This document shows positions 6,212 to 46,908 of a stretch of 64,000 nucleotides of DNA, piece after piece. The notes beneath the pieces are model-generated. The model saw nothing but the letters and a program-made list of their open reading frames with translations, did not search any database and was not told where the DNA came from. Each line of letters opens with the position of its first letter. Positions within the stretch are counted from its first letter, which is position 1. Location of the stretch: contig JAGCTE010000055.1 of assembly GCA_017963805.1 (NCBI GenBank), positions 1 through 64,000 on the forward strand. Direction: 5' to 3'. A program made the position numbers and the translations under genes. The stretch is from a bacterium (GTDB lineage Bacteria; Auribacterota; UBA3054).

Positions 6212-9200
6212 ATGAAACGTTTCCTTCTCCTGGCGCTGCTTTTAGCGCTTACCTCCTCTCTGATGGCCGAGACCCTCTTCGAGGAGAATTTCGAGAGTTA
6301 TGAGGCCGGAACCGAAATGGTCGGCACGATCGACGGCTGGGATACCTTCTCCACCTACGGCGGCAGTTCCACCATCGTCGAGAACGAGAGCGGCATCGCC
6401 GGAAAATCCATGAAAATGCAGCAGATCGACGGCGGTTCGGCCGATTACGACATGATCTTCGGCCCGAAGTTCGACATGTCGACGGAAGACTCCTTGAGGC
6501 AGCTGGTGAGAGTTTCCGCCACCGTGGTCCCCTCCAGCGAGACGGACATTATGGCGCTCTACGCCGTGAACGGCGAGACCAACCGTTTCGCCTATCTGCA
6601 CATGAACGTGGCGAAAGGCGAGCTTACTTCCTATCCCACCGGCGCGACGCTGACCAATCTCAACAAGGACAACACGCCCAACAGGATTTCCATGCTGTGG
6701 GACAACTATGACAATACCATCAGGCAGATAACCTGCAACGGGCAGACCCAGGACTGCCATATCGCCATGTCCGGAAGCTTTTACGCTCAGCCCGTCAGGA
6801 TCCGTTTCTCCACGCAGTTCGGCACCAGGAAAGACTGGGTCACCTACTATGACGACGTCAAAGTGGAAACGGAATCCCGCTACGCCGCGCCGCACCTCTT
6901 CATTGATAAGACCAGCCTTACCCTGAAAAAGAAAGCGCAGGGGCACCTGACTCTCCAGAACGCCGGACCGGAAGGCGACATCACCTTCGCTATAACCAAG
7001 AGCGAAGGCGCCGACTGGCTGACCGTTTCCCCCAGCAGCGGCACTTACAACGGCACCAAGGACCTGACTTTCTCCACCACCGGCGACAAGGATTACGCCA
7101 GGGCGAAAGTGACCATCGACGCCGGAACGGCCGGCACTGAAGTTGTGAGCGTTTACTGGGTGAACGGCACGGTCTTTTACCGCGAGGATTTCGAGGAACC
7201 CTTCATGACCATGGGCGACCTGCAGAATCAGGAAGGCTGGCTGGTCAGAAGCGACACCGGCTCTAGCAGCAACAGGGCCGAGATCGAAAAGCCCGAGTTT
7301 GCCGAAAGCCAGGTCATGCACGCTTACAGGTCCACCGGCTACGACGGCGTCAGAAAGGGCGGCCGTCCCGGCAGCACGCCCATCGAAGGCTGCCCGGCCC
7401 TGTCCGTGGTCAAAGTCTCCGGCAGGATCTATTGGGAATCCACTTCCAACGCCGGCAGCATCTACCTGGCCACGCCCGACACCGCCAAGCCCTTCTGCAT
7501 GAAGATAAGAAAGACCGACGGGCAGAACACCTTCTATCTCTATCAGATGAGAGACGGCAGCTACACTCCGCCCGACGCGTTCAGCGGAAAGACCTGGCCC
7601 ATGGACGAGTGGGTCTACGTCTCCTACACCATCGACTTCGCCACCATGAAGGGCGTGGAAGTCCAGATCGGCGACGTTACGGCCGACATCTCCAACTACA
7701 GCCTCTACGATGTGCCCGTCAAGGCCTTCACCGGCCTTTCCTTCTGCACCGACAAAGCTAGTGGCGGCGACGACTGGGACGCCAAGTTCTACTTCGACGA
7801 TATCCAGTGCGAATACATCCCGAGAGGCGACGAGCCCATCATGGGCATCGATGACGACACTTTCCACACCGGCTTGACGGCTGAAAGCGGCGAAGTGACG
7901 CTGGTCAACGCCGGCGGCGGCAGCTTCGACTACAGCGCCTCCGTCATCATGGGCGGCAGCTGGCTCTCCATTGCCGAACCGACCAGCGGCACCTGTGAAG
8001 ACGAAGCCAAGATCGTCTTCAACATCGACCGCGAGGCCTTGAACGAGGACTACTACCGCGGCGTCATCAGCCTCGACTGCGGCTCCTGCGGCTCCACCAA
8101 CATCCTTGTGACGGCCGGCGCCGGACACATCATCTACAAGGAAGACTTCGAGGAGCCCTTCATGCAGGTAGGCGATCTCCAGGGTCAGGACGCCTGGGTC
8201 GTCAGAGGCACCAACTGCGCCGACAGCAACGAAGCCTACGTCGTCGACGCCCACGACACGCACTGCATGCACGCCAAGCGCGCCCAGGGCTACGATGGCA
8301 TCAGGAACAACTCCCTGTCAGGCTGCCCTGAGAATCAGATCGTGAAGTTCTCGTACAGGATCTACTGGGACGACCAGTCCGAGGCGCAGAGCGTCTATCT
8401 GGCCACTCCGGCCGGCATAAAGCCCTTCTGCATGAAGATCAGGCGTAAAGACGACGGCACCTTCTACCTCTACCAGATGCTGGACGGCTCCTACCAGCCG
8501 CCCCTGGACGGCTACAGCTGGTCCATGAACGAATGGATCGACATTTCCTATACCCTCGACTTCCGCTCCCAGAACGGCGTGACGGTCCAGATCGGCGAAG
8601 ACGCCGCGGACATCAGCTCGCTCGTCCTTTACGGCAACGGCAGCTACAAGAAACTCGAGGGCTTCAGCTTCTGCACCGACGGATCCGGCAACGAATTCGA
8701 CTCCCTGTTCTATTTCGACGACTTCAAGATGGAAATCATCGACAGGGATCCCGATCCCAAGCTGAATATCGCCACGCCCAGAGTTGTGGTCGGCTTGACC
8801 GCTGAAAGCGGCGAAGTCATGCTCAACAACTCCGGCGCCGGCAGCTTCGAGTGGACCGCCACTCTGCCCGACGATCCTTCCTGGCTTGAACTGACGACCG
8901 CCAGCGGCACCTGCCAAAAGGACGATCCCGTCCGCTTCAAGGTCCTAAGGGATGAGATGGAATCCGACTACTACCGCACCGTTATGCACATCGACGCCGG
9001 AGCCGCCGGCGAAGCCGACGTGATAATATGCGTCTGCTCCGGTTCCGTCTTCTACAAGGAAGACTTCGAGGAACCCTACATGCACATAGGCGACCTCCAG
9101 GGCCAGGACGGCTGGGTCGTCAGGAACGGCGGCTACTGCCGCGACGTCAACAGCGCCTACGTCACCAACGGTCTGCCCTTCACGGACAACGCCTGCATGC

Positions 9201-10615
9201 ACACGGTCGTTTCCAAAGGCATCGACGGCACCACAAGGGACTATGTCAGTACCTGCCCGAGGGACGCCAGAGTGAAAGTCTCCATGGACGTTTACTGGGA
9301 TTCCGCTTCTCCCTGCGACGCCGTGTATCTGGCCTGCCCGATCCGCCACAAACCCATGACTCTTAAGATAGAGAACAAGGGCGACGGCACCTTCGGCGTC
9401 AGAGGCATGCAGGACGACAGCTACAAAGTGATGGTTGGCAAGACCTGGTCTATGGACGAATGGGTGCACATCAGCTACTCCATGGACTTCAGGACCCAGA
9501 CCGGCGTCGAACTGACGATCGGCGAGGAGACCGAGGACATCACCCAGGTCGAGCTCTACGGCACCCACCACACCTACGAAGGCTTCTCCTTCTGCACTGA
9601 CGGCGACGACGAGATGGATTCTCTCTTCTACTTCGACAATCTGGTGTTCGAAATAGTGCCCAAAGAAGACAAGCCGCATCCCGTGATGCCCGGCGCCACG
9701 GCCGTTTCCACGGACGACAGCGCCACGGTCAAAGTCCTCAACTACGGCACGCCTTACGACTTCTCCATTTCCGTTTTGGATCTGCCCGGCAATGTGAGCG
9801 TCTCTCCCAAGACCGGCCGCACCGAAGACTCCACCGAGCTGACCTTCACTGTAAACCGCGGCGAATTGGATGACAACTTCTACCGCACCAGGGTCTGCTT
9901 GTCCTACTCCGACGGCGTTACGGAAGGCGCGCTGACGTCTCTTGTGACCTTCGCGGTTGGCGGCTGGTACTACGGCGCCGACTTCCTCGGCCCGTGGTTC
10001 GGCTACGGCCCCCTGAACGGCCAGGAAAGCTGGACCGCCAATTCTTCGGAAGTCGAGATCATCAACCTTGACGGCGAGAACGCCATCAAGTATCCCTTCG
10101 CCTGCTCCACCGAGGTGGGAGCCAAGGTCCCCTTGGACGGCATCTTTACCTTCTCCGCCAGAGTGTACAGCGAAGAGCTGGCCGACGACTCCTACTTCCG
10201 TATCGGAACAGTGGACGGCGCCGGCTACTATCCCATGTACATCAGCAGGGAAGGCGACCCGAGGGAACTGCAGTTCGGCTACTTCTCCGGCAACACCTGG
10301 ACGCCTATCGCGACGGCGCCCTTCGGACAGTGGGTCGACTTCAGCTTCACCATGGACACCAATCCTGAAGTCGCCTGCATAAAGGAGATCACCTTCGACG
10401 ACTTCGTGACGAACTTCATCGACGGCGAGCTGCCGCTCAACCCGAGCTACGACGGCAAACGCATCGAGAAGTTCACGATCAATTTGTACGACGTGGCCAA
10501 CCCGGCCGGCATGTACATGTCCAGGATCGTCGTCAAGGATCCCGCCGTTCCCGAACCGGCGATCCTGGCGCTGCTCGCCTTGGTCGGAATGCTCTTAGTC
10601 CGTAAAGCGAACTAA
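6212..10615 (+). CDS. Giant modular PEP-CTERM secreted protein, five lectin-like units
   Basis: This encodes 1467 residues with a signal peptide (1-19). The protein repeats a unit of about 305-320 residues beginning near residues 20, 320, 640, 945 and 1251. Each unit starts with a lectin/jelly-roll-like domain marked by (F/Y)Y(K/R)EDFEEP, G-D-L-Q-x-Q-x-x-W and an FYFDD strand near its end. It continues with a roughly 90-residue Ig-like domain carrying WLTVSPSSGT and a YYR...V..D.G..G pattern, as in BACON domains. The C-terminus (from about residue 1446) is VPEPAILALLALVGMLLVRK, a PEP-CTERM-type signal recognised by exosortases in other bacteria. The likely role is a surface or matrix binding protein. 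It is transcribed alone between a strong promoter and a strong terminator. Confidence 0.85.
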   Translation: MKRFLLLALLLALTSSLMAETLFEENFESYEAGTEMVGTIDGWDTFSTYGGSSTIVENESGIAGKSMKMQQIDGGSADYDMIFGPKFDMSTEDSLRQLVRVSATVVPSSETDIMALYAVNGETNRFAYLHMNVAKGELTSYPTGATLTNLNKDNTPNRISMLWDNYDNTIRQITCNGQTQDCHIAMSGSFYAQPVRIRFSTQFGTRKDWVTYYDDVKVETESRYAAPHLFIDKTSLTLKKKAQGHLTLQNAGPEGDITFAITKSEGADWLTVSPSSGTYNGTKDLTFSTTGDKDYARAKVTIDAGTAGTEVVSVYWVNGTVFYREDFEEPFMTMGDLQNQEGWLVRSDTGSSSNRAEIEKPEFAESQVMHAYRSTGYDGVRKGGRPGSTPIEGCPALSVVKVSGRIYWESTSNAGSIYLATPDTAKPFCMKIRKTDGQNTFYLYQMRDGSYTPPDAFSGKTWPMDEWVYVSYTIDFATMKGVEVQIGDVTADISNYSLYDVPVKAFTGLSFCTDKASGGDDWDAKFYFDDIQCEYIPRGDEPIMGIDDDTFHTGLTAESGEVTLVNAGGGSFDYSASVIMGGSWLSIAEPTSGTCEDEAKIVFNIDREALNEDYYRGVISLDCGSCGSTNILVTAGAGHIIYKEDFEEPFMQVGDLQGQDAWVVRGTNCADSNEAYVVDAHDTHCMHAKRAQGYDGIRNNSLSGCPENQIVKFSYRIYWDDQSEAQSVYLATPAGIKPFCMKIRRKDDGTFYLYQMLDGSYQPPLDGYSWSMNEWIDISYTLDFRSQNGVTVQIGEDAADISSLVLYGNGSYKKLEGFSFCTDGSGNEFDSLFYFDDFKMEIIDRDPDPKLNIATPRVVVGLTAESGEVMLNNSGAGSFEWTATLPDDPSWLELTTASGTCQKDDPVRFKVLRDEMESDYYRTVMHIDAGAAGEADVIICVCSGSVFYKEDFEEPYMHIGDLQGQDGWVVRNGGYCRDVNSAYVTNGLPFTDNACMHTVVSKGIDGTTRDYVSTCPRDARVKVSMDVYWDSASPCDAVYLACPIRHKPMTLKIENKGDGTFGVRGMQDDSYKVMVGKTWSMDEWVHISYSMDFRTQTGVELTIGEETEDITQVELYGTHHTYEGFSFCTDGDDEMDSLFYFDNLVFEIVPKEDKPHPVMPGATAVSTDDSATVKVLNYGTPYDFSISVLDLPGNVSVSPKTGRTEDSTELTFTVNRGELDDNFYRTRVCLSYSDGVTEGALTSLVTFAVGGWYYGADFLGPWFGYGPLNGQESWTANSSEVEIINLDGENAIKYPFACSTEVGAKVPLDGIFTFSARVYSEELADDSYFRIGTVDGAGYYPMYISREGDPRELQFGYFSGNTWTPIATAPFGQWVDFSFTMDTNPEVACIKEITFDDFVTNFIDGELPLNPSYDGKRIEKFTINLYDVANPAGMYMSRIVVKDPAVPEPAILALLALVGMLLVRKAN

Positions 10616-10644
10616 GACCGCAAAGCGCTCCTTTTGGCAGCGCG

Positions 10645-10706
10645 AAAAAGACACCCCCCTCAAGATTTTGTTACGAAGTAAAATCAAGAGGGGGGTGTCT
10701 TTTTTT
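10645..10706 (+). terminator. Rho-independent terminator after the giant PEP-CTERM gene
   Basis: A long hairpin pairs AAAGACACCCCCCT with AGGGGGGTGTCTTTT around a roughly 30-base loop whose ends also pair partly (GATTTT with AAAATC). The right arm runs into a T7 tract. It isolates the gene ending at 10615 from the one starting at 10761. Confidence 0.85.
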
Positions 10707-10720
10707 GTGCCAAAATGTGC

Positions 10721-10726
10721 TATAAT
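10721..10726 (+). promoter_or_regulatory. TG-extended -10 box upstream of the 863-residue PEP-CTERM gene
   Basis: TGCTATAAT gives a perfect -10 hexamer with an extended TG. The -35 region falls in the T tract of the preceding terminator and is poor, so the extended -10 probably matters. The ATG lies 34 bases downstream of the hexamer. Confidence 0.55.
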
Positions 10727-10760
10727 CTCTAATAATTTAAACAAAAATAAGTAGGGAATC

Positions 10761-13352
10761 ATGTCTAGAATTTTGCTGTTTTCGGTCATTTTTTTCGCGG
10801 CGGCGGCCTTCGGCGCCGAGGTTTATTACACTTGCGATTTTGAGGAAGGATTCACGCCGGGCGACCTTCAGGGACAGAAAAACTGGACCGTTCGGACCAC
10901 CGACGGCTACTGCCACGAGGACAACGTGGCGACGGTGGGGGACTACCATTCCCGCCAGTGCGTCCAAATTGGCAAAGCCACCGGTTGGAACGGCGTCATC
11001 GTCAAGAATATCCCGCCCTCCCCGAACGGGAGCCTTGTGAAAGTTTCCTTCAAAATGTTCTGGCCGAACGATTCCTCCGTCTCCTCCGTGCAGATAGCCA
11101 GCGACTGGTGGAACCGCCCCGTTCAGCTCAGCTTTAAGTCGAACGACGGCGGAACGTTCAGGGTCGGCTCCCTTCAGGACAAAACCACCCTTGTTCCGGA
11201 AGACATTAAAAACGTTTCCTTCGGCAAGGGGGAATGGATAGACGTTTCGTATACCATAGACTTCAGAGCCGGCGTCATGGATAAGCTGAAAGTGGGCGAA
11301 AAAGAGTGCGACGCGAGCCTTGTTCCCATAAAGGACAGCTCCACGAACCTGAAGAGCTTTTCCATCGTCGCCGACGCCGAAGCCAACATCTGCTTCGACG
11401 ACATCAAGGTGGAATCGATAGACCGCGAAGGGAGCCCGGTGCTCGCCATCGGCTCGGTCATCCTTTTGGTGCCGAGCAAGTCTACTGCCGCGAGTTTGCC
11501 GCTCTACAACATGGGCGGTGGGGAACTGACTTACAGGGTCTACCTGGACGAGCAGCCCGAATGGCTGACGATAAAGAATCCGGAGGGAACTTTCACGGAA
11601 AGCGCCGCCCTTAACTTCAGTTTCGATCGCTCGCTTATGCAAACCAACGTCTATTACGTCAACGTCCGCGTAGACGGCGGTTCGGCCGGCAGCAAGACCT
11701 GCCTTCTGAAAGTTCAGAGCAAGGGCGCCATCTGCTCGTACACCTTCGATCCGCCCGCCCTTTATTCCGGAGAGATAACCGGCCAGGACGGCTGGGAAGG
11801 CATCAGGGACGACGGCTACGGATACCTCGACAACTGCATGCTGGTCACCAACGTTCCCTACGGCGCTGACGGCCCCTGCGGTTTCATTAAAAACGCCTAC
11901 GGCTGGAACAGCTACACCTGCCCGGTGACGTCCGAAAAAGACGCGGTCGTAAAAGTCTCCATGAAGATCAGGAAAGACTCCGAATCCAGCCAGGATTCCT
12001 TCTATTTCCGCAACGAATGGTGGAGCTTCCTGTATGAGTTCTGGTTCTGGCGCTACGAGGACGCTTTCTATCTCTACAAATTCAACAGCGGAAAAGCCTA
12101 CGCCGTCGCCGGGGACTACCCCTTCCCCTTGGACACTTGGCTCGATCTCTCCTTCACCATCGACCTTAGGCTTTATCGGCTGACGGAATTCTCGCTGGGC
12201 GGTTTCTCGACCAACTTCACGTCGGGCTTCGAACTTATGACCCAGCACGACAAGACGAACAGGTACGAGAAATTGAACACCCTGGCCTTCGTCTGCGGAT
12301 CAGCCGAAGTGACGGACGCCAACCTTCTTGTCGACGACATCCTGGTCGTCGAGCTTGAAAGGCCGAAGACGCCCATTCCCTTGCTGGACACCTCCGTCGC
12401 TTTGGACCCCACGCAGGAAAGGGTGAGCGTTCCCGTTATGAACGCCGGCAACAGGGCTTTCAAATACACTTTGACCGTTCTGGATCTGCCCCAAAACCTC
12501 GTTCCGCAGCCCGCGACCGGGAAGGTCGGCGCAAGCGGCGATCTTACTTTCGACCTTTTCACTGACAGCTTGGAAGACGGCTTCTACCGCACCAGGGTCG
12601 TAATGGATTACAAAGCCACAAGCGGCAGCGGGGAAGGCTCCATAACTTCGCTCTTCACTTTCGCCAAGGGCGGCTGGTACTACGCCACGGAGTTTGAAGG
12701 CAGCTGGTACGAGCCGGGCGGCCTGCGCGGCCAGGACACCTGGCTGGCCGGGGTCGAAGGATCAGGGAAAGAGCCCAAAGTTTCCGCAAAGGAAGGCGCG
12801 CAGTGCGCCGAACTGCCGGGGACCGGCTATATCAAGACTTCCTGCTTCGTTCCCCCGGAGAGCGCCTTCACTTTCAAGAGCCGCTTCTTCGTGGAAAACG
12901 GCGACGACGAAGGGTACGCCAAAGTGTCTTTCATCGACGACACAGGCTTCATGCCGTTCTACATCTGCCGCGACAGAGAAATCCGCAAGGCGGTTTTGGG
13001 TTATTTCCCGGCCGGCAGCGACACTTTCGAGAATTTGGCCCAGGCCAACATGGGCGAATGGCAGAACTTCAGTTTCAGCATCGACACCAATCTGGAAAGG
13101 AACGAAGTCTTGAGCGTCACTTTCGGCGACACCGAAATAACTTTCCCGGAGGGCACGTTCTTCCTCAACAACGAGTACGACACCTGCGCCGTGAGCAACC
13201 TCACCATAAGGGTGTCAAGCGGCAGCGAGGAAGAGGAGACGGTCGCCCCCTTCTATTTCGACAACATCGTCGTCCATGACAACGCCGTGCCGGAACCTTT
13301 GGCGGGCCTTTTCTTCGCGGCGCTCGCGCTTTTTAATTTGAGAAAAAAATAA
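10761..13352 (+). CDS. Modular PEP-CTERM secreted protein, three lectin-like units
   Basis: This encodes 863 residues with a signal peptide (MSRILLFSVIFFAAAAFGA). The lectin-like units begin near residues 22, 322 and 638, marked by CDFEEGFTPGDLQGQKNW, GEITGQDGWEGIRDDGYG and GGLRGQDTWLAG. BACON-like Ig domains lie between them (PEWLTIKNPEGTF, and a diverged copy around residues 540-620). The tail is VPEPLAGLFFAALALFNLRK, a PEP-CTERM-type sorting signal. The middle unit closely resembles those of the minus-strand genes at 14467 and 17132, so the four giant proteins are shuffled copies of the same modules. ilvE follows after only 18 bases with no terminator, implying co-transcription. Confidence 0.85.
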   Translation: MSRILLFSVIFFAAAAFGAEVYYTCDFEEGFTPGDLQGQKNWTVRTTDGYCHEDNVATVGDYHSRQCVQIGKATGWNGVIVKNIPPSPNGSLVKVSFKMFWPNDSSVSSVQIASDWWNRPVQLSFKSNDGGTFRVGSLQDKTTLVPEDIKNVSFGKGEWIDVSYTIDFRAGVMDKLKVGEKECDASLVPIKDSSTNLKSFSIVADAEANICFDDIKVESIDREGSPVLAIGSVILLVPSKSTAASLPLYNMGGGELTYRVYLDEQPEWLTIKNPEGTFTESAALNFSFDRSLMQTNVYYVNVRVDGGSAGSKTCLLKVQSKGAICSYTFDPPALYSGEITGQDGWEGIRDDGYGYLDNCMLVTNVPYGADGPCGFIKNAYGWNSYTCPVTSEKDAVVKVSMKIRKDSESSQDSFYFRNEWWSFLYEFWFWRYEDAFYLYKFNSGKAYAVAGDYPFPLDTWLDLSFTIDLRLYRLTEFSLGGFSTNFTSGFELMTQHDKTNRYEKLNTLAFVCGSAEVTDANLLVDDILVVELERPKTPIPLLDTSVALDPTQERVSVPVMNAGNRAFKYTLTVLDLPQNLVPQPATGKVGASGDLTFDLFTDSLEDGFYRTRVVMDYKATSGSGEGSITSLFTFAKGGWYYATEFEGSWYEPGGLRGQDTWLAGVEGSGKEPKVSAKEGAQCAELPGTGYIKTSCFVPPESAFTFKSRFFVENGDDEGYAKVSFIDDTGFMPFYICRDREIRKAVLGYFPAGSDTFENLAQANMGEWQNFSFSIDTNLERNEVLSVTFGDTEITFPEGTFFLNNEYDTCAVSNLTIRVSSGSEEEETVAPFYFDNIVVHDNAVPEPLAGLFFAALALFNLRKK

Positions 13353-13370
13353 AATAATAAAGGAGTTATT

Positions 13371-14396
13371 ATGAGCAAAAACATCGACTGGGGCAAACTG
13401 GGTTTCGCCTACATGAAGACGGACTACCGCTATGTCTCTTACTTTAAGGACGGAAAGTGGGACGAAGGGAAACTCGTGACCGACGATTCCATAACCCTCA
13501 ACGAATGCGCCTGCGTCTTCCAGTACTGCCAGGCTTGCTTCGAAGGGCTTAAGGCTTACACTACCAGAGACGGCCGCATCGTGAGCTTCAGGCCCGACCT
13601 TAACGCAAGCCGCATGGCCGAGTCCGCCAGGCGCCTTGTGATGCCTCCTTTCCCCGAAGACCGCTTTGTCAAGGCCGTGAGGGAGCTCGTCAAGGCCAAC
13701 AAAGACTTCGTGCCGCCCTTTGGCAGCGGCGCGACGCTTTACATCCGCCCCTTCATGATAGGTTCAAACTCCGTAATAGGCGTGAAGCCGGCGGACGAGT
13801 TCGAGTTCAGGATGTTCTGCACGCCGGTCGGCCCGTACTTCAAGGGCGGCGCCAAGCCGATCGTCATCAGAGTCTGCGACTACGACCGCGCGGCACCCCG
13901 CGGCACCGGTCACATCAAGGCCGGGCTCAACTACGCCATGAGTTTGTACGCCGGCATGGAAGCCCACGCCGAGGGTTTTGCCGAGAACATGTACTTGGAC
14001 CCCGCCACCAGGACGAAAGTCGAGGAGACCGGCGGCGCCAACTTCATCTTCATAACGAAAGACGGAACGTTCGTGACGCCTAAATCCGACAGCATCCTGC
14101 CAAGCATAACCCGCCGCTCGCTTATGGTCGTGGCTGAAAAGTACCTCGGCATGAAAGTCGAGCAGAGGGAAGTCCTCCTTTCCGAAGTGCCCGAATTCGC
14201 GGAATGCGGGCTGTGCGGCACCGCGGCGGTCATCTCCCCGGTGGGCAAGATCGTCGACCACGGCAAAGAGATCTGCTTCCCCAGCGGCATGGAGAAGATG
14301 GGCCCTTGGACCCAGAAACTCTACGACACGCTTACGGGCATCCAGATGGGCCAAATAGAGGGCCCCGAGGGCTGGGTGGATACTGTTATCGGGTAA
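13371..14396 (+). CDS. ilvE: Branched-chain amino acid aminotransferase (fold type IV)
   Basis: This encodes 341 residues and is a PLP-dependent transaminase that interconverts Leu/Ile/Val and their 2-oxoacids with 2-oxoglutarate/glutamate in the cytosol. Family hallmarks are FEGLKAY near residues 57-63, the Schiff-base lysine in GTGHIKAGLNYA (K183), the EETGGANFIF glutamate region around residues 218-227, and GTAAVISPVG near the end. The length fits the eukaryote-like BCAT2 subgroup (about 340-360 residues). A good AAGGAG site precedes the ATG. It sits 18 bases behind a PEP-CTERM gene, an unrelated partner, and ends at a shared bidirectional terminator. Confidence 0.95.
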   Translation: MSKNIDWGKLGFAYMKTDYRYVSYFKDGKWDEGKLVTDDSITLNECACVFQYCQACFEGLKAYTTRDGRIVSFRPDLNASRMAESARRLVMPPFPEDRFVKAVRELVKANKDFVPPFGSGATLYIRPFMIGSNSVIGVKPADEFEFRMFCTPVGPYFKGGAKPIVIRVCDYDRAAPRGTGHIKAGLNYAMSLYAGMEAHAEGFAENMYLDPATRTKVEETGGANFIFITKDGTFVTPKSDSILPSITRRSLMVVAEKYLGMKVEQREVLLSEVPEFAECGLCGTAAVISPVGKIVDHGKEICFPSGMEKMGPWTQKLYDTLTGIQMGQIEGPEGWVDTVIG

Positions 14397-14420
14397 TGCC
14401 CAAAAGGCGCCTTAAAACGA

Positions 14421-14447
14421 AAAAGCGGGCTTTTCAGCCCGCTTTTT
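14421..14447. terminator. Bidirectional terminator between convergent ilvE and the 881-residue PEP-CTERM gene
   Basis: AAAAGCGGGC at 14421-14430 pairs perfectly with GCCCGCTTTT at 14437-14446 around a six-base loop. The A tract on the left and T tract on the right allow termination from both strands. Confidence 0.85.
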
Positions 14448-14466
14448 TGTTCGCTTTCGCGATTGC

Positions 14467-17112
14467 TCAGCGCCGCTTCACAAGCAAGAGCGCAAGGAGC
14501 ATCAGGCCGAATACGGCCGGCTCCGGCAGCGTGGAGTCGCAGAAGACCAGATTGTCGACGCAGACGTAGGTGTCGGAGGATTCCTCCTCGTCGTAGTTCC
14601 AGGCGTAAAGCTCTATCTGGTCAAGGTCTTTTTCGTCGTAAGCCGGATCGAAGACCATCTCTCCCGGGATGAAGTTGGTGGTGTAATCGTTGACGGAAAG
14701 CCAGTTCACGCAGGAGGCGGAAATGTCCATGTCCCCTTCGAAGGCGAGGGTGTTCCACTTGCCGAGGGGCGCTTCGCAAAGGATCTGGTACTCTTCCTCG
14801 CCGCTGGGCTTGTGGCAGACTACGGCGGCCTGGCGCATGGGATCGCACATTATGTAAAGCGGAAAGTTGCCTTCCGAATCATGGTGCTCTTTCTGGACCT
14901 TTTCGTTTTTGGTGGTGAAGCGCAGGGCGTAGCTGTGCTCTATGTTTTTCAAATAGAAACGCAAAGAGGCGCGGTATTTCGAGCCGGCGGCGATCCTGAC
15001 GGTCGAAACGGCCGTGCCGTCCTCGCGGAAGGAGAGGCACTGCGCGCCGTCCGTCAGGGCGATCTTCGGCGCGGTCTTTCCGCGCGCGGAGGCCTTCCAG
15101 GTGTCCTGTCCGTTCAGATCTCCCAACCGATACGTCGAGCCTTCGAATTCCGAGGCGTAGAACCAGCCGCCCTTGGCGAAGGTGACAAGCGAAGTGATGG
15201 AGCCGGAATTGGTCTCGTCGCTGGCGGCGTAGTCCATCACGACCCTGGAGCGGTAGAAGCCGTCTTCCAATCCGGACCTGACGAGCCTGAGCACCAGGCT
15301 CCCCGAGGAGGTGACGGTGGCGGTGGCGGATTTCGGCTTTACGTTGTCGGGATAGTCTAGAACGCTGAAGGCCGCTTTGAATTTCTTGCTGCCGTTGTTG
15401 TAGATCCTGTTTGTTACGGAATTGAGGTCCTCGCCAAACGAGAGGGAATTGGACCACTGCGGGATGGCGTAGGGCTCGCGCTCGAGCTGCTCGACCTTGA
15501 GATTGTCTATCAGAAGCATGGCGTCCAATGTTTCCTCTCCGCCGGAGCTGATGCCGAACTTGGTGTAATTGGTGGCGGGGGAGGTTCCCTGCGGCTTGTT
15601 CCTTATGGGAATGCCGTCCACATAGTTCGTTGCGTAGTCGCCCAAAGTGAAAGCGATGAGTTTCGCCGAGCGGTAATCGACCGTGAATGAGAGGTCGAGC
15701 CAGGTGTCGAGAGGCGCTTCGTAGGAGCCGATAAGCCCCCAGGGCTCGTCGTCGTTGAACTTGTACATGTAGAAGTGGTCTTCGTTGCGCCAAAACCACA
15801 TGTGCACGGAATTGTTCCAATAGTCCTGGTGCAGCGTGAAGGAGTCCTCGTCGCCGGCCGAGCCTTTAAAGATCTTCATGCTGACTCTTACCACGGCCTG
15901 GTTTTCGGAATTGACGTCGCAGGTGTAGGCGTCCCAGCCGTCGCTTCTTTTGATGTAGGCGCAGGCGCCGTCAAAACCGTAGCTGACGTTGGTAACGAGC
16001 ATCTCGTTGTATATTTTGCCGTAGCCGTCGTCGCGCTTGCCAGTCCATCCGCCCTGGCCGGTAATTTCGCCGACTCTCCTGAAGGGCGCCTCGAAGTTCT
16101 CATAGATAAGGACGGTTCCGGAAGCCGCGCCCAGAGTCAGGTATTTCGTTCCGGCCGCGCCGCCGTCGACCTTTATGACCGCCCTGTAGTAGCCGTCCGT
16201 CATGACGGAGCGGTCAAGGTTGGCTTTAACGTCGACTTTGCCCGCGCAGGTGCCGCTTTCCGGCGTCACGGAGAGCCATTCCGGCGAGCCTTCGCACTCG
16301 ATCTTGAAGTCGAAGGAATCGCCCCCGTTGTTCATGACGGAAAAGGAAGCGTTCTTGGAGGCTTTCCCTAGCGCGATGGAATTGGGCGTCACCACCAGTT
16401 CCGGAGGCCCGGAGCTGCCGTCTGTTATCCCGACGTAAAGGTTGTCGGCGGAGACGTCGCACTCAAGGGCGAAGCGGAAGGGCTTCGGCTTGCTCGCGGT
16501 GGTGTACTGATGGTAGCCCATCATCAGAGTGTCGGTGTTGGTCCAGCAGTTTTCGTCAAGCTCGAATTTCACGATGAGCTTGCGGGCCGGATCGACGGTA
16601 AGCTTGTAGGTGTGGAAGGCGTCGGATCTGTAGGAGCCCAAGGGGAGGGAATAGCTTTTGGCGGTCAGGATGTCGTAGCAATCCAGCGAAATGTTGTGCT
16701 CGTCGCCGGAACTTTTGGCGACGACGGTGGCCATTTCCTTTTCGTTCTCACAGAGAAATTTCACCCAGTTGTCGCAGCCCTGGGGGCTTAGGAAATCACC
16801 GGACATCACGACGTACTTGCCTTCCAGACTGTCTGAAAAAGTGAAGGAACGTCCCAAAAAAGGCTTCTTGTCACCGTCGACCCTCAGGCAGAGGGCCTGG
16901 CTTCCGCTTTGCACGATGGAAGCCCTGTTGGTGACGTTGCAAATAGACTGCGGGCTGTGGCGGCTGTCAGTTGAGGTCCAGCCTTTCTGCCCGATGATCT
17001 TGCCAAGGGCGTAGCCTTCCGATTCCTCAAATCCGATCCTTAGGATCTCGGTGTCGGAAAAGAGGGAGCTGCTGACGGACAAAGCGAAGAGCGCGATAAG
17101 GAATTTTTTCAT
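14467..17112 (-). CDS. Modular PEP-CTERM secreted protein, three lectin-like units
   Basis: The start is placed at the ATG at 17110-17112, giving 881 residues with a clean signal peptide (MKKFLIALFALSVSSSLFS). A longer frame reaching 17169 would add 19 residues ahead of it and run into the upstream gene. Units begin near residues 22, 334 and 647 (GQKGW, GEITGQGGWTGKRDDGYG, GDLNGQDTW). BACON-like domains include PEWLSVTPESGTCAG near residues 280-295. The C-terminus LPEPAVFGLMLLALLLVKR is a PEP-CTERM-like tail with unusually few residues after the helix. It lies 19 bases downstream of the 1190-residue paralogue, so both are probably one operon. Role: exported surface or matrix protein (inference). 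Confidence 0.83.
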   Translation of the reverse strand: MKKFLIALFALSVSSSLFSDTEILRIGFEESEGYALGKIIGQKGWTSTDSRHSPQSICNVTNRASIVQSGSQALCLRVDGDKKPFLGRSFTFSDSLEGKYVVMSGDFLSPQGCDNWVKFLCENEKEMATVVAKSSGDEHNISLDCYDILTAKSYSLPLGSYRSDAFHTYKLTVDPARKLIVKFELDENCWTNTDTLMMGYHQYTTASKPKPFRFALECDVSADNLYVGITDGSSGPPELVVTPNSIALGKASKNASFSVMNNGGDSFDFKIECEGSPEWLSVTPESGTCAGKVDVKANLDRSVMTDGYYRAVIKVDGGAAGTKYLTLGAASGTVLIYENFEAPFRRVGEITGQGGWTGKRDDGYGKIYNEMLVTNVSYGFDGACAYIKRSDGWDAYTCDVNSENQAVVRVSMKIFKGSAGDEDSFTLHQDYWNNSVHMWFWRNEDHFYMYKFNDDEPWGLIGSYEAPLDTWLDLSFTVDYRSAKLIAFTLGDYATNYVDGIPIRNKPQGTSPATNYTKFGISSGGEETLDAMLLIDNLKVEQLEREPYAIPQWSNSLSFGEDLNSVTNRIYNNGSKKFKAAFSVLDYPDNVKPKSATATVTSSGSLVLRLVRSGLEDGFYRSRVVMDYAASDETNSGSITSLVTFAKGGWFYASEFEGSTYRLGDLNGQDTWKASARGKTAPKIALTDGAQCLSFREDGTAVSTVRIAAGSKYRASLRFYLKNIEHSYALRFTTKNEKVQKEHHDSEGNFPLYIMCDPMRQAAVVCHKPSGEEEYQILCEAPLGKWNTLAFEGDMDISASCVNWLSVNDYTTNFIPGEMVFDPAYDEKDLDQIELYAWNYDEEESSDTYVCVDNLVFCDSTLPEPAVFGLMLLALLLVKRR

Positions 17113-17131
17113 TTTCGTTTCCCAAGTTGGA

Positions 17132-20100
17132 TTAATTTTTTCTGGCTGAAAGGAGGGCGGCCATGGCAAGGATCAGGGTCAGGCAAACCGGTTCCGGAAT
17201 GTTGGCGTCGCAAAGGACGAGATTGTCCACGTAGACTCCGACCTCGTCGTCTTCCTTAAGGTTGTAGGCCGTTATCTCGAAAACATCCAGCGGCAGACCG
17301 TCGAGATCGGGATTGAGGACGATCTCGCCCTCGTAGAAGTTTGTGGTGTAATCGTTCAGGGTGAGGCTGACGGCGCAGGAGGAGGCGACGTCCGTATTGA
17401 GGACGAAGGAGAGTTCGTTCCACTGCTCAAGGGGCGCTTCCAGAAGCTTGCAGTCGGGATCGCCGTCGTTACTATAGTATACGGAGGCCAGATTTCCCTT
17501 GGAGGGGTCGTAGACCACATAGACGGGAAGATTGCCGTCTCCGCCCTTCTTCTTGTTGTTCGCGGTCACTCTCAAAAGGTACGGCTTTCTCCTGTCTTCC
17601 ATATAAAAGCGCAGGTATGTCCTGTAGGGCGTTTCCGGCGGGACGGCAACCAAGGCCGAGGCGCTTGAGTCGTAGGGGAAGGAAAGGCACTGCAGCCCGT
17701 CCTTCATAACGACGCTGGGCGCTTCGGTTCCCCAGGTGTAGGCGCTCCAGGTGTCCTGGCCGTTGAGGAAACCTAATTCGTAGCCCGTGCCCTCGAATTC
17801 CGAGGTGTAGAACCAGCCGCCTTTGCTGAAGGTGATAAAGCACTTAAGGCTGCCGGAATTTGAGCCGTCCACAGCCTGATAGTCCATTGTGAGATACGCG
17901 CGGTGGAACCCTTCGCCGACGGCGGAACGGTCCAGCCTTATTATAACGTTCCCGTCCTTGGAGCCCGTGCCTTCCTGCTTGGCAAGGGAAAGGCCTTTGG
18001 TGTATCCTGAAATGCTGAGCGCGTAGCTGAAGTCGACGCTTCCCAGATTGGAGAGCTTGTTGGTCGCGCAGGAGATCTGGTCGCCGAGCGCGATGGCGCC
18101 GGTCCAGATGGGCAGGGCGACATGAGGCCTTTCGATTTGCTCTACAAGAATGTTGTCAAGGCAGACTTCGGCGTCCTCGGTCTCGCTTCCGCCGGCCGTC
18201 ACGGCGAAGTATTCGAACCTTTCCACGGGATTGACGCGGTCGTTGGGGGCGTTCCAGAGAGTCATGCCCTCCGCGTAGTTCGTCGTATAGCTGCCGAATG
18301 TCACGCTGGTCAGCTTGTAGGCCTTGTAGTCAAGGGTATAGGAGAAGGGGACCCATTCGTCGAGGTATTCCGGGTGCTCGCCAACGAGCTTGTAGGTCTC
18401 GTCCTCGTTCAGCTTGTAGAGGTTGAAGTGGTCGTCGTGGCGCTTGAATTGGAACTGGGCGCAGTTGCCCCAGTAGTTCTGGCGGATAAAGAAGGATTCC
18501 TGGTCGGAACGCGAGCCGAAACGAAGCATCATGCTGACTCTGACGACCGCTTCCTTGTCGCATTTGGCCTTCATCGTATAGCCGTCCCAGCCGCCGCCTC
18601 TATAGACATGGGCGCAGGCGCCGTCATAGCCGTAGTCGACGTTGGTAACGATCATTTCGTTGAATGGCTGCCCGTAGCCGTCGTCCTTTTTGCCGTTCCA
18701 GAGGCCCTGGCCGGTTATTTCGCCGGGAAGCATGAAGGGAGGTTCGAAATCCTCGTACATAACGACGGAGCCGCTGGGCGCGAAGAGGAAGAAGCTCTTT
18801 TGCCCGGCGGATCCCGCGTCGACGCTTATGACGGCCTTGTAGAAGCCGTTGGTCATACGGTCCCTTGCTAGGTTAAGCTTTACGTTTTCAGAGCCGGAGC
18901 AGGTCCCTTCCGCGGGCTCGACGGTCAGCCATTCGGGGTCGCCTTCCGCCGACACCGTGAAGTCGAAGGGGACAGTGCCGGCGTTCCTGACCTGGAAGGT
19001 CACGCTGTCGACGCTTCTTTCCGCGTAGACCGCCTCGGAGGGGACGACCAGTTTCGAGTCGGCGCTTTTTTCCGCCAGTTCCGCCGTCAGATCGTCTATG
19101 AATACCATGGCGTCCGAGGTCTGGCTGCCGTCCGCCGAGATGGCGAAATAATCCAGCCTTTCGACCGGATTGACGTGTTCGTTGGGGGCGTTCCTAAGGA
19201 CGAAGCCCTCGGAATAGTTCGTCGAAAAATCGCCCAGGGTCACGCTCGTCAAAAGGTACGATTCCAGATCCATCGTGAATGAGAAGGGGATCCACGCGTC
19301 CAGAGGCGCCCTGTAGTCGCCCGTTAGGGCGTACTTTGGGCCGTCGTTGAACTTGGTGAGGGCGAGGCGGTCCTCCTCGCGCTTGAACTGGAAGTCGGCG
19401 CAGTTGCCCCAGTAGTTTTCGTGGATGGAGAAGGAGTTGGCGTCGGATTCCGCGGCGCAGTAGAGCATGAGGCTTATTTTGACCATGGCCTGCTTCGGGG
19501 ATTTGGCCTTGCAAGTGTAGCCGTCCCAGCCGGCGCCCCTGATTAGATGCGCGCAATTGCCCGCGAAGCCGTAGCTGACGTTGGTCACGACCATGGCGTT
19601 GTAGGGTTGGCCGTAGCCGTCGTCCCTCTGCCCGTCCCAACCTCCCTGGCCGGTTATCTCGCCGGACTTCAGGTAGGGCTCCTCGAAATCCTCGTACAAA
19701 AGAACCTTTCCGCTGGCGACGCCCAAAAAGAGAGTTTTCGTTCCGGCCGAGCCCGCGTTGACAGTCAGGATGGTCCTGTAGAATTTGTCTCCCAGGGCGC
19801 TTCTGTCAACCGTAAGGGTAACTTTCTGCGCGGCGCTGCAGCTGCCGGAAGCCGGGCTTATGGTCAGCCATTCCGGGTTTCCGTCCGCCGTCACGGTGAA
19901 GTCGAAGGGGTCGCTTCCGCTGTTGATGATCTTGAATTCGTCGCTGTCTTTCTCGAGGTCCAAATAAACGTATTTTTGCGAGAGCATGAGCGAAGCCGGC
20001 TTGTGCTCGGCCGCTCTGGTCTCTATTTTCAAATTGTCGGCGGAAACGTCGCACTCCAGGCAGATGCGGTTGGGGATGGGCTCCTTGGAGGAATCGTATT

Positions 20101-20704
20101 TCTCGTAGCCCATGATCCTGCTCGCGGTGTTGGTTATGATCACGTCGTCGACGGAGCAGCTTATGATCGCCTTGCGCAGGGGGTCGACGACCAGCTCGTA
20201 ATGGCTGTAGGTATCGTCCGGGACCTGCTTGACGGTCTCTTCCTTGTAACTTCCGGTGGCGAGGTCCGTGTAGGCGAGCTTTATGCTGTGGTAGCCGTCC
20301 CGGACGCTGCCGACGAAGCAGGCGCAGTCCCTGGAATCGGCGAAGCACAGCTTCACCCAGCCCTTCTTGCCGGCGGGGTGCATGAAGTCGCCGGAAAAGA
20401 CCACGTATTTGTTCTCGACGCCGCCCTCGATGTCAAAGTTGACGCCTACGAAGGGATTGACGTCGCCCTCTTTGGTGCGCATAGCGAGCGATTGGCTTCC
20501 GCTTTTTACGATCTCGGTTCTGTTGGTGACGTCGAAGACCGAATCGTAATTGTGGCGGCTGTCCTTTACGTCCCAGCCCCCCTGGTCGAGAACTTCTCCG
20601 CAAGAGAAGCCTTCCTCAGGCTCGAATGAGCAGGAATAGACGAGATCATCGGCTGCGCAGAAAAGCGCGGCGACGGCAAAAGCGCAGAAGAATAAGTTTT
20701 TCAT
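17132..20704 (-). CDS. Giant modular PEP-CTERM secreted protein, four lectin-like units
   Basis: This encodes 1190 residues with a signal peptide (MKNLFFCAFAVAALFCA). Four lectin-like units start near residues 22, 331, 646 and 961. Units 2 and 3 are near-duplicates: YEDFEEPYLKSGEITGQGGW and YEDFEPPFMLPGEITGQGLW, each followed by DDGYGQP(Y/F)N and the pair NYWGNCA.FQFKR. BACON-like domains (PEWLTISPASGSC, PEWLTVEPAEGTC) link the units. The tail IPEPVCLTLILAMAALLSARK is PEP-CTERM-like. Internal duplication of a whole lectin+BACON unit explains why it is one unit longer than the downstream paralogue. The AT-rich upstream region (20705-20797) probably holds its promoter, but no convincing pair of hexamers was found. 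Confidence 0.83.
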   Translation of the reverse strand: MKNLFFCAFAVAALFCAADDLVYSCSFEPEEGFSCGEVLDQGGWDVKDSRHNYDSVFDVTNRTEIVKSGSQSLAMRTKEGDVNPFVGVNFDIEGGVENKYVVFSGDFMHPAGKKGWVKLCFADSRDCACFVGSVRDGYHSIKLAYTDLATGSYKEETVKQVPDDTYSHYELVVDPLRKAIISCSVDDVIITNTASRIMGYEKYDSSKEPIPNRICLECDVSADNLKIETRAAEHKPASLMLSQKYVYLDLEKDSDEFKIINSGSDPFDFTVTADGNPEWLTISPASGSCSAAQKVTLTVDRSALGDKFYRTILTVNAGSAGTKTLFLGVASGKVLLYEDFEEPYLKSGEITGQGGWDGQRDDGYGQPYNAMVVTNVSYGFAGNCAHLIRGAGWDGYTCKAKSPKQAMVKISLMLYCAAESDANSFSIHENYWGNCADFQFKREEDRLALTKFNDGPKYALTGDYRAPLDAWIPFSFTMDLESYLLTSVTLGDFSTNYSEGFVLRNAPNEHVNPVERLDYFAISADGSQTSDAMVFIDDLTAELAEKSADSKLVVPSEAVYAERSVDSVTFQVRNAGTVPFDFTVSAEGDPEWLTVEPAEGTCSGSENVKLNLARDRMTNGFYKAVISVDAGSAGQKSFFLFAPSGSVVMYEDFEPPFMLPGEITGQGLWNGKKDDGYGQPFNEMIVTNVDYGYDGACAHVYRGGGWDGYTMKAKCDKEAVVRVSMMLRFGSRSDQESFFIRQNYWGNCAQFQFKRHDDHFNLYKLNEDETYKLVGEHPEYLDEWVPFSYTLDYKAYKLTSVTFGSYTTNYAEGMTLWNAPNDRVNPVERFEYFAVTAGGSETEDAEVCLDNILVEQIERPHVALPIWTGAIALGDQISCATNKLSNLGSVDFSYALSISGYTKGLSLAKQEGTGSKDGNVIIRLDRSAVGEGFHRAYLTMDYQAVDGSNSGSLKCFITFSKGGWFYTSEFEGTGYELGFLNGQDTWSAYTWGTEAPSVVMKDGLQCLSFPYDSSASALVAVPPETPYRTYLRFYMEDRRKPYLLRVTANNKKKGGDGNLPVYVVYDPSKGNLASVYYSNDGDPDCKLLEAPLEQWNELSFVLNTDVASSCAVSLTLNDYTTNFYEGEIVLNPDLDGLPLDVFEITAYNLKEDDEVGVYVDNLVLCDANIPEPVCLTLILAMAALLSARKN

Positions 20705-43328: not shown

Positions 43329-44099
43329 ATGAAAAAACTTTTAGTTCTTTTAGTGGCCGTTTGCGCCGTGTCCGCTTTGGCGGAAAGCATAGTTCTTAAA
43401 ACCATCGACTTCGAAACCAGCGAAGGCTACCAGGCGGGTGAACTTTTGGGCCAAAACGGCTGGTATAGCATCTATTCTGGTAATGGCAGGCAAGAAATCG
43501 TAAATGATCCGACTACGGCTCCCTCTGGTTCCCAGTATGCGACCTATAACAAGGAAAACACAGGTGATGGTCCGAACACGGCTGTCAAATTTGACATTTC
43601 CGGCTCTTATGTCGCGGGCAACAAACTGCTCATCAGCTGGGATCAGGCCGGCAGCACTGCACAAGACGGTTATATCAAACTTCACAACCTCGGTACTAGC
43701 GGCAAACAGTATGATGTCGAGATCGCCGAAATAATCATGTACAAGCCCTCTTCTACTTACGCTGCCATTACCGTCAGCAAGAAAGACAAGTCCGGCACGC
43801 TTACGAAGGGCGTTGACGTCGGCGACACGACGGCGTTCCATCATTTTACTCTGCTCATTGATCCCGCCACCAGATGCATTAAGGAGTACACCGTGGATGG
43901 CAATGTGATCGACGATATTACGGACACCTACTATAAGAATGAATGCGATGGCAAAACCCGCGGCGGTGATCTTATCGACGGCGTGCGCTTCATGAACAGA
44001 GGCTCCTTCGACAACTTCAAAGTCGAGATGGTGCCTGAACCGGCTATCTTCGGTCTTATCGCTCTACTGGGCCTTTTCTTTGCCCGCAAGCAGCGCTGA
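43329..44099 (+). CDS. Small PEP-CTERM secreted protein, single lectin-like domain (type A)
   Basis: This encodes 256 residues from the ATG at 43329, preceded by a GGGGGG-rich ribosome-binding region. A TTG at 43281 would add 16 residues before a good signal peptide and is rejected. After the signal peptide comes one lectin-like module (IDFETSEGYQAGELLGQNGW). It ends with TYYKNECDGKTRGGDLIDGV, a block shared with the genes at 45928 and, less closely, 46909. The tail VPEPAIFGLIALLGLFFARK is a canonical PEP-CTERM-type signal. It is followed after 34 bases by the type B gene at 44134, probably in the same transcript. It resembles the N-terminal module of the giant PEP-CTERM proteins. Confidence 0.8.
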   Translation: MKKLLVLLVAVCAVSALAESIVLKTIDFETSEGYQAGELLGQNGWYSIYSGNGRQEIVNDPTTAPSGSQYATYNKENTGDGPNTAVKFDISGSYVAGNKLLISWDQAGSTAQDGYIKLHNLGTSGKQYDVEIAEIIMYKPSSTYAAITVSKKDKSGTLTKGVDVGDTTAFHHFTLLIDPATRCIKEYTVDGNVIDDITDTYYKNECDGKTRGGDLIDGVRFMNRGSFDNFKVEMVPEPAIFGLIALLGLFFARKQR

Positions 44100-44133
44100 A
44101 TTGAAAATTAACCAACTGAGATAAGGATAAATT

Positions 44134-44877
44134 ATGAAAAAACTGTTTCTTCTTCTGACCATCGCCTGCGCGACTGTGGCGTTCGCTGAAAACCAGACGC
44201 TTTTCAGCATTGACTTCGAGGAAGGCGAAGGCTACGCCGAAGGCAAAGTTGCCGGCCAGAACGGCTGGGACAAGCTGGCCTGGTGGGCTAACGACGAGGT
44301 CTTCGTTGTCAACGACGAAACCGCGGCCGCTTCCGGCAGCCAGTTCATCGAAAGCAATCCCTCCGGCGTCAACGTGCAGCTGAACGGCATCGACATTTCC
44401 GAAAGCTACGTCGCCGGCTCCAAACTCCTGGTGAGCGCCTACGGCCAGGCCAATTTTGTTGAAGGCGGCCAGACCATGAGCGTCAGATTCCACTGCCTCG
44501 GCACATCCGGCAAAGGTTACGACGTGGAGATCGCCGAGTTCAACTTCAATCAGGACGGCAGCGGCAACGCTTTCGTTTCCGGTAAGAACATGACCTTCGA
44601 AGGCCTTGAAAAGGGCCAGTACTACAAATTCGGCGTCCAGATCGACCCCGCCACCAAAGGTGTGGAGAAGATCTTCGTGGGCGAGAATTCCTATGAAGGC
44701 GAAGGCATGACTTACAAGAGCGCCACGGCGGAAGGCTGCGGCTCTTTGCCCGACGGTATCCGCATTTACAACGGCGCCGGCAAACTGGACAATTTCAAGA
44801 TCGAAGTGGTCCCCGAACCGGCCTTCTTAGGCCTTCTGGCCATCGCCGGTCTCTTCTTCGCGAGGAAGCAGAGATAA
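44134..44877 (+). CDS. Small PEP-CTERM secreted protein (type B), duplicate of the next gene
   Basis: This encodes 247 residues, with an AAGGAT site before the ATG. Signal peptide (MKKLFLLLTIACATVAFA), one lectin-like module (DFEEGEGYAEGKVAGQNGW) and tail VPEPAFLGLLAIAGLFFARK. It has the same length as the protein at 45020 and, by eye, about 85 percent identity, with identical stretches such as SNPSGVNVQLNGIDIS and SYEGEGMTYKSATAEG. This indicates a recent tandem duplication. A strong terminator follows. Role: exported, exosortase-sorted surface or matrix protein (inference). Confidence 0.82.
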   Translation: MKKLFLLLTIACATVAFAENQTLFSIDFEEGEGYAEGKVAGQNGWDKLAWWANDEVFVVNDETAAASGSQFIESNPSGVNVQLNGIDISESYVAGSKLLVSAYGQANFVEGGQTMSVRFHCLGTSGKGYDVEIAEFNFNQDGSGNAFVSGKNMTFEGLEKGQYYKFGVQIDPATKGVEKIFVGENSYEGEGMTYKSATAEGCGSLPDGIRIYNGAGKLDNFKIEVVPEPAFLGLLAIAGLFFARKQR

Positions 44878-44902
44878 GTTCCGCAAAATCGCGAGATTGC
44901 GC

Positions 44903-44940
44903 AAAAAAAGAGACCGCCTGAGAAGGCGGTCTTTTTTTTT
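44903..44940 (+). terminator. Terminator after the PEP-CTERM gene at 44134
   Basis: GACCGCC at 44912-44918 pairs with GGCGGTC at 44925-44931 around TGAGAA, preceded by A7 and followed by T9. Near-identical stems close the next three small PEP-CTERM genes. Confidence 0.88.
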
Positions 44941-44944
44941 ACGT

Positions 44945-44973
44945 TTGATTATCAAACGCTTTTTTGATAGAGT
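44945..44973 (+). promoter_or_regulatory. Promoter/leader block 1 of the small PEP-CTERM array
   Basis: TTGATT at 44945-44950 and TAGAGT at 44968-44973 are 17 bases apart, with a TTTTTGA run before the -10. The 45 bases that follow (GTTTTTAAAC..GATAAT..AAATTG.GAGGAAG) are conserved in the leader at 45854. Confidence 0.55.
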
Positions 44974-45019
44974 ATCTCATGTTTTTAAACAGATAATCCA
45001 AATTGTGAGGAAGGTTATT

Positions 45020-45763: not shown

Positions 45764-45790
45764 GTTCCGCAAAGCAACGGGACTTAATTA

Positions 45791-45824
45791 AAAAGAGACC
45801 GCCTGAGAAGGCGGTCTCTTTTTT
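45791..45824 (+). terminator. Terminator after the PEP-CTERM gene at 45020
   Basis: AAAAGAGACCGCC pairs with GGCGGTCTCTTTT around the same TGAGAA loop used by the previous terminator, ending in six T residues. The shared loop supports duplication of gene plus terminator as one unit. Confidence 0.88.
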
Positions 45825-45853
45825 CGCGCAGGCCGGGGTAATTCAAAAACCGG

Positions 45854-45881
45854 TTGATTATATAACCTTTTTTGATAAAGT
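45854..45881 (+). promoter_or_regulatory. Promoter/leader block 2 of the small PEP-CTERM array
   Basis: TTGATT at 45854-45859 and TAAAGT at 45876-45881 are 16 bases apart in the context TTTTTTGATAAAGTATC. The following leader (GTTTTTAACCTGATAATTGA, then AAATTGCGAGGAAG) closely matches block 1. Confidence 0.55.
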
Positions 45882-45927
45882 ATCCCGCGTTTTTAACCTG
45901 ATAATTGAAATTGCGAGGAAGAATGTT

Positions 45928-46734: not shown

Positions 46735-46762
46735 GCTTCGCTGACCGGCGAGACTTAAATGG

Positions 46763-46797
46763 AAAGGAGACCGCCTTGTTGGGCGGTCTCTTTTTTT
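46763..46797 (+). terminator. Terminator after the PEP-CTERM gene at 45928
   Basis: GAGACCGCC at 46767-46775 pairs with GGCGGTCTC at 46782-46790, loop TTGTTG, then T7. The stem is the same as in the preceding array terminators; the loop differs. Confidence 0.88.
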
Positions 46798-46836
46798 GGG
46801 TCGGTCTGGGTTTACGCTAAGAATTGTTAAAACATA

Positions 46837-46865
46837 TTGTTTTTAAAATCCATTTTTGATAAAAC
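46837..46865 (+). promoter_or_regulatory. Promoter/leader block 3 of the small PEP-CTERM array
   Basis: TTGTTT at 46837-46842 and TAAAAC at 46860-46865 are 17 bases apart, again with TTTTTGA before the -10. The leader keeps GATTTTAACCTATAAT but is otherwise diverged, so it is the oldest-looking copy. Confidence 0.5.
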
Positions 46866-46908
46866 GCCCGCCGATTTTAACCTATAATAAAAAACTAGGA
46901 GAAACACT

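Follow-up and report, generated by a model that had tools for sequence, protein, structure and literature searches.

Alternating lectin-like and BACON-like domains in the PEP-CTERM proteins of a ruminant gut bacterium: constant unit number and mosaic sequences among eight species

Background

Rib and alpha C of streptococci are surface proteins whose repeat number varies by means of near-identical repeats. PEP-CTERM proteins, another class of exported proteins, were defined together with EpsH by Haft et al. in 2006, and undergo lineage-specific paralogous expansion (PMC1569441), with 65 members in Verrucomicrobium spinosum and 21-23 in Akkermansia muciniphila (PMC3048395, PMC4960237). They are numerous in many Gram-negative bacteria, mostly without recognisable domains or known function; one of them is involved in floc formation (PMC9850573). 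Here we describe five PEP-CTERM genes, P1 to P5 (at 6212, 10761, 14467, 17132 and 50093), in a 64,000-nucleotide (nt) stretch of the bacterial contig JAGCTE010000055.1 (the window). Their products are chains of lectin-like (L) and BACON-like (B) domains. The number of these domains is the same in the complete orthologues of eight species, and the orthologous sequences are mosaics. The window is contig 28 of a ruminant gut genome (G000) of 2.05 Mb in 74 contigs, 93% complete.

Results and Discussion

Architecture and predicted fold of the repeated domains

Domain boundaries were placed by hand after an all-against-all comparison (Table 1). The L domains are mostly 193-222 amino acids (aa) long and the B domains about 95-108 aa, and the two alternate in all five proteins. 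A first-pass annotation of this DNA had read five, three, three, four and three copies of a combined lectin-like and BACON-like unit in these genes. All five genes are real and these counts are correct for L, but B occurs in four, two, two, three and two copies. B is one fewer than L in each protein because each chain has L at both ends, the last L running straight into the PEP-CTERM tail. The two motifs that the annotation had used as unit markers turn out to be real but loose. G(D/E)(L/I)xGQ(D/G)xW is found in strict form in 7 of the 18 L domains and in relaxed form in 14 (none in P5); WL..P.SGT is strict in 2 of the 13 B domains and relaxed in 8. Shuffled proteins gave 0.07 and 0.035 relaxed matches, respectively, and the occurrence of both motifs is thus far beyond chance.

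The B domains of P1, P3 and P4 match the Pfam family PF19190 (BACON_2) with scores that exceed its cut-off (for P1, E = 3e-19 over four stretches); P2 scores below it (19.5 against 25) and P5 shows no match. A phage origin, prompted by the family name "Viral BACON domain", was rejected, as P1 and P4 have no PHROG match. For L, no Pfam family reached its cut-off, the best being Laminin_G_3 for P1 only (21.5 bits against 27.6), and a unit profile gave chance-level matches against PDB sequences (best E = 0.053).

AlphaFold models were made from alignments of the window sequences and their relatives, with pLDDT values of 94.1 for one L+B unit and 94.7 for L alone. In the unit model B is all-beta, and a Foldseek search with this model includes a match to the BACON-bearing xyloglucanase 3zmr. 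The two-domain search being hard to interpret, L was modelled and searched alone. It returned 95 PDB matches at E<=0.001, the top ones concanavalin-A (ConA)-like, with a probability of 1.00 to many members: the lectin domain of galactocerebrosidase, the sialidase BT_1020 (TMq 0.60), alginate lyases, trypanosome sialidases, legume lectins and galectins. Sequence identity to these matches is at most 13%, and TMq is at most 0.60 among the 50 matches listed. As modelled, L is a ConA-like beta-sandwich (jelly-roll) and B has an Ig-like BACON fold, in line with the annotated character of the unit; "lectin-like" here describes a fold, not binding.

Tails and exosortase

The tails of P1 to P5 all exhibit a PEP motif, a hydrophobic stretch and a basic end, and their N-termini, by inspection only, show a short basic start followed by a hydrophobic stretch, as in signal peptides. 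In an alignment of 30 tails including these five, PEP is invariant and R is present in at least 90%. A tail profile identified about 50 PEP-CTERM-like tails in G000 (E<0.01), and the single-L protein at 46909 scores above the TIGR02595 cut-off (17.8 against 16). The genome encodes a single exosortase (contig C20, L191:3351-5411; EpsH, E = 2.4e-34) of 686 aa, in which EpsH is fused to an EpsI-like (DUF3485) domain; none of the named subtype models reaches its cut-off. An exosortase is found in 7 of the 8 genomes compared below. Tails and exosortase together bear out the first-pass assignment of these proteins to the PEP-CTERM class.

Unit number is constant among eight species

We compared eight genomes of the genus (G000 to G007), one per species. 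The comparison genomes are apparently all short-read metagenome-assembled genomes (MAGs), and those with names stem from the gut of yak, sheep, goat and water buffalo. The complete orthologues of P1 to P5 exhibit identical architectures and nearly equal lengths across the eight species: 1466-1470 aa for P1, 863-869 for P2, 881 for P3, 1190-1198 for P4 and 923-927 for P5, alternative starts aside. Architecture is also kept in 24 orthologue groups (members in at least two genomes), the sole difference being one 9-bit BACON match, present or absent. When 135 L domains were placed in a maximum-likelihood tree, the 18 gene-position labels required 17 changes, which is the minimum, all 18 positions being separate. 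The unit duplications therefore predate the genus. Old intragenic duplications are visible in the same tree, where L2-L4 of P1 form one clade (100/99) and L2 and L3 of P4 are sisters (80/81); the terminal L domains of P1-P4 group together (92/99). L and B domains are each closest to the orthologue at their own gene position, with one marginal exception, L2 of P4 in G000 (289 bits to a P4 L3, 282 to other P4 L2).

The first-pass annotation had taken P4 units 2 and 3 for near-duplicates and had proposed gain and loss of units through recombination, by which surface length or binding would vary as at a contingency locus. The marginal exception in G000, the old duplications in P1 and P4 and the different unit numbers of the paralogues would all fit such a locus. 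However, the complete orthologues agree in unit number and differ in length by a few residues, and each position keeps its own clade. L2 and L3 of P4 are 57% identical in protein sequence, B1 and B2 41%, and the corresponding DNA 68% over 837 nt. The longest exact repeat inside a gene is 11-26 nt, against 198-433 nt between species (five pairs checked), and repeats this short are poor substrates for recombination. We thus consider the contingency model very improbable, and active change of unit number between species is rejected. Recent unit duplication within genes is contradicted by identity, tree and exact-repeat length, and concerted evolution of the units by the separation of positions across species. 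Ancient copies in fixed number had been named by the annotation, along with a lack of lectin-like structure, as findings contrary to its proposal; the former is what we observe between species, whereas L is predicted to have a lectin-like fold. Its description of the units as "shuffled" is apt for ancient intragenic duplication and for the apparent exchange of alleles between species described next, but not otherwise.

Mosaic sequences among species

The orthologues are uneven domain by domain, tracts of 90-99% identity lying beside tracts of 52-78%. In P4 of G003, L1 resembles that of G002 (97%) and everything from L2 onward resembles G004 (93-99%), with the switch near the B1/L2 border; P4 of G002 and G004 are 51-79% identical to each other. 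P1 of G004 tracks G003 as far as L4, and from there on G007 (B4 99%, L5 96%). In a home-made version of the pairwise homoplasy index (PHI) test, P1-P5 gave z values of -14.7 to -44.8, the exosortase gene -5.0, the aminotransferase-like (ilvE-like) gene between P2 and P3 -1.7, and rpoB -0.7.

Both rpoB (compared without G007) and the exosortase (without G004) split the genus into G000-G004 and G005-G007, rpoB DNA being 82-84% identical between the two clades. This split is not followed by the ilvE-like gene, and P1 of G001 and G005, from opposite clades, is 96% identical. Immediately upstream of the locus, these two genomes share 78% identity. From a point shortly before P1, identity is 91-99% over most of a tract of at least 30 kb, in which P2 and the end of P3 fall to 77-84%. 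The stretch beyond P5 is 72-88% identical. G006 has two versions of the locus, and in its contig C165 a flank matching G005 only adjoins P1-P2 mostly 90-98% like G002. P3 is absent in G002, and C165 carries five unrelated open reading frames instead, between the ilvE-like gene and P4 (L097:10051-15318). Gene number, unlike unit number, thus differs between species.

The simplest reading of these sequence patterns would be homologous replacement between species. The same patterns might come from short-read co-assembly and mis-binning, given that the comparison genomes are metagenome assemblies, that long exact matches connect donor and acceptor, that G006 carries two locus versions and that a ruminant project with matching sample types used MEGAHIT, partly on co-assemblies (PMC8199421). 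Yet the same mosaic P1 recurs in two separate yak MAGs (G002 and G006a), the G001-like tract of G005 and the dissimilar sequence just upstream lie on one contig of 542 kb, the G005-like flank and G002-like locus of G006 are likewise joined in C165, and the PHI test gives no signal inside either rpoB or the ilvE-like gene. We therefore regard such an artefact as unlikely.

If the tracts do reflect replacement, the PEP-CTERM locus may be a hotspot of interspecies recombination, with repeat number and domain order held constant while species of different clades exchange entire genes and individual domains, dragging the ilvE-like gene along. An antigen- or receptor-like pool of alleles, shared by co-resident species, would then replace variation in repeat number. 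We put this forward tentatively, as a possibility rather than the expected outcome.

Extent of the family

A unit profile search of G000 gave 67 matches. The annotated family comprises 26 proteins, encoded by 83 kb of DNA, with a total of 82 L and 52 B domains that alternate almost strictly, in architectures including L-L, LBLBL, LBLBLBL and LBLBLBLBL; this count leaves out the single-L proteins of the window. In genomes of the same order outside the genus, the profile finds few or no matches. Two members carry a protease ahead of their L/B modules, a subtilisin in C68:19459 and an M12 metallopeptidase in C46:28767, and both have PEP-CTERM-like tails. Among the regions examined, just two genomes, G001 and G005, have an LLBLBL gene. 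The sole clear rearrangement at the level of the cassette is a 2368-aa protein of G002 (C27, L168:1870-8976, minus strand), which combines kelch repeats, an LBLBL cassette, seven InlB-type B-repeats and a weak GLUG motif, and has no PEP-CTERM-like tail. The single-L PEP-CTERM genes beside P5 vary in number, with five in G000, three in G005, two in G001 and two in G007; the genes at 44134 and 45020 are 86% identical, a recent duplicate.

The two protease-bearing proteins (C68:19459-35762, C46:28767-33866) are among the very long members of G000 that have L/B modules and PEP-CTERM-like tails, as is C47:19917-24452; those beyond C68 and C46 are paralogues of C68:19459.

Possible role of the proteins

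The proteins would be secreted and their PEP-CTERM tails processed by the exosortase, after which they might be released, or attached in the outer surface or an exopolysaccharide layer. The three to five L domains of each chain, with B as spacers, may bind glycans multivalently, if the modelled fold is a guide, and could thereby hold the cells on plant fibre, on mucus or on the matrix of the cells themselves. On a subtilisin or M12 protease the L/B module might act like the carbohydrate-binding module of an enzyme. Variation would come from allele exchange with co-resident species and not from changes in repeat number. Taken as a whole, on sequence and model evidence, P1 to P5 are probably multivalent glycan-binding surface or matrix proteins sorted by an exosortase, of fixed unit number and subject to allele exchange, and part of a genus-specific expansion of such PEP-CTERM proteins.

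Alternatively, L and B could be structural, building a surface layer or exopolysaccharide matrix, with a ConA-like fold that lost sugar binding or never had it. PEP-CTERM proteins have been tied to exopolysaccharide (PMC1569441), and one of them affects floc formation and bound polymer (PMC9850573). Fixed length together with purifying selection would suit a structural role: single domains of P1-P5 have median dN/dS values of 0.11-0.44, and the tails values of up to 0.49. These values, averages rather than site-level estimates, argue against positive selection overall. In P1, B2-B4 are under less constraint than L3 and L4. L4 of P1 is 91-99% conserved between species and its neighbours are not, a pattern suggestive of a particular ligand or partner, and the L/B modules on proteases resemble targeting modules. 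We accordingly find a purely structural role rather doubtful, and prefer glycan binding.

Several points weigh against this preferred account. Many domains of the ConA fold bind no sugar. The P1 tail scores 13.8 bits on PF07589, below the cut-off of 20.7, and P2-P5 have no PF07589 match. Short-read MAGs could have merged repeat copies that are recent and identical, and mosaic genes in such assemblies could be chimeric contigs. The exosortase also exhibits some recombination signal, and exchange may therefore be general in the genus.

Neighbouring genes and coordinates

Coordinates are collected in Table 1. The start of P3 is the ATG at 17112 and not the TTG at 17169; P4 and P3 lie on the same strand with 19 nt from the end of P4 to the start of P3. 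A strong stem-loop followed by seven T (10650-10706), between P1 and P2, is a likely terminator. Upstream of P1 (2459-6036) are two neighbouring genes for secreted-looking proteins of 593 aa with no Pfam match, of which that encoded at 4255 is highly variable among species, at 60-89% identity. The neighbouring genes for proteins of about 330 aa at 22808-25835, also without Pfam match, may be paralogues of each other; their cross-species matches are about 55% where the true orthologue lies outside the compared stretch.

Table 1. Window positions of the L/B genes, their domains and associated genes
Feature	Position	Strand	Description
P1	6212..10615	+	1467 aa; putative signal peptide, L-B-L-B-L-B-L-B-L, PEP-CTERM
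P1 L domains	6266-6880, 7166-7822, 8123-8743, 9041-9661, 9959-10537	+	
P1 B domains	6881-7165, 7823-8122, 8744-9040, 9662-9958	+	
P1 tail	10538-10612	+	
P2	10761..13352	+	863 aa; L-B-L-B-L, PEP-CTERM
P2 L domains	10815-11423, 11724-12359, 12669-13277	+	
P2 B domains	11424-11723, 12360-12668	+	
P2 tail	13278-13349	+	
ilvE-like gene	13371..14396	+	branched-chain aminotransferase-like; between P2 and P3; outside the repeat family; named by eye
P3	14467..17112	-	881 aa; L-B-L-B-L, PEP-CTERM
P3 L1, L2, L3	16417-17055, 15481-16119, 14539-15171	-	
P3 B1, B2	16120-16416, 15172-15480	-	
P3 tail	14470-14538	-	
P4	17132..20704	-	1190 aa; L-B-L-B-L-B-L, PEP-CTERM
P4 L1, L2, L3, L4	20009-20650, 19070-19711, 18131-18772, 17210-17821	-	
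P4 B1, B2, B3	19712-20008, 18773-19069, 17822-18130	-	
P4 tail	17135-17209	-	
Single-L PEP-CTERM array	43329..47706	+	five genes, 247-268 aa; beside P5
Single-L array genes	43329-44099, 44134-44877, 45020-45763, 45928-46734, 46909-47706	+	
P5	50093..52864	+	923 aa; divergent L-B-L-B-L, PEP-CTERM
P5 L domains	50153-50818, 51143-51745, 52070-52786	+	
P5 B domains	50819-51142, 51746-52069	+	
P5 tail	52787-52861	+	

Comparison with known systems

Searching the literature for papers on both BACON and PEP-CTERM returned only the Akkermansia genome paper, which names the two separately, and no paper was found that unites BACON and lectin-like repeats with PEP-CTERM. The proteins described here share with PEP-CTERM/EpsH systems the PEP, hydrophobic and basic end, the many paralogues and EpsH itself, and their N-termini resemble the signal peptides of such systems, and lineage-specific expansion is typical of these systems (PMC1569441, PMC4960237, PMC3048395). 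They differ in that the exosortase fits no named subtype cut-off, and in that PEP-CTERM proteins elsewhere have few recognisable domains, whereas here one L/B module builds at least 26 proteins in a genome with about 50 tails. A single defined module, ConA-like and BACON-like as predicted, would thus cover about half or more of the tails of a small genome. It is also present on proteases, and it makes a concrete test of ligand binding possible.

B belongs with the BACON-domain proteins (PF13004/PF19190) by its PF19190 matches. The tandem BACON arrays of crAssphage resemble the present chains in having one clade per position and a stable order (cluster 1; PMC6949934). In contrast, B here never directly follows B but alternates with a lectin-like domain, and the proteins are bacterial and PEP-CTERM-tailed. 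L shares its predicted jelly-roll with the ConA-like lectin/glucanase superfamily (Laminin_G_3, sialidase lectin domains, PL7-type lyases, galectins), from which it is set apart by an identity of at most 13% and by scores below the Pfam cut-off. Like Rib and alpha C, P1 to P5 are large repeat proteins, probably secreted and at the surface; their repeats, however, are at most 57% identical and constant in number between species. A conserved repeat number, with alleles that seemingly move between species, provides a counter-example to the view of repeats as devices for length variation.

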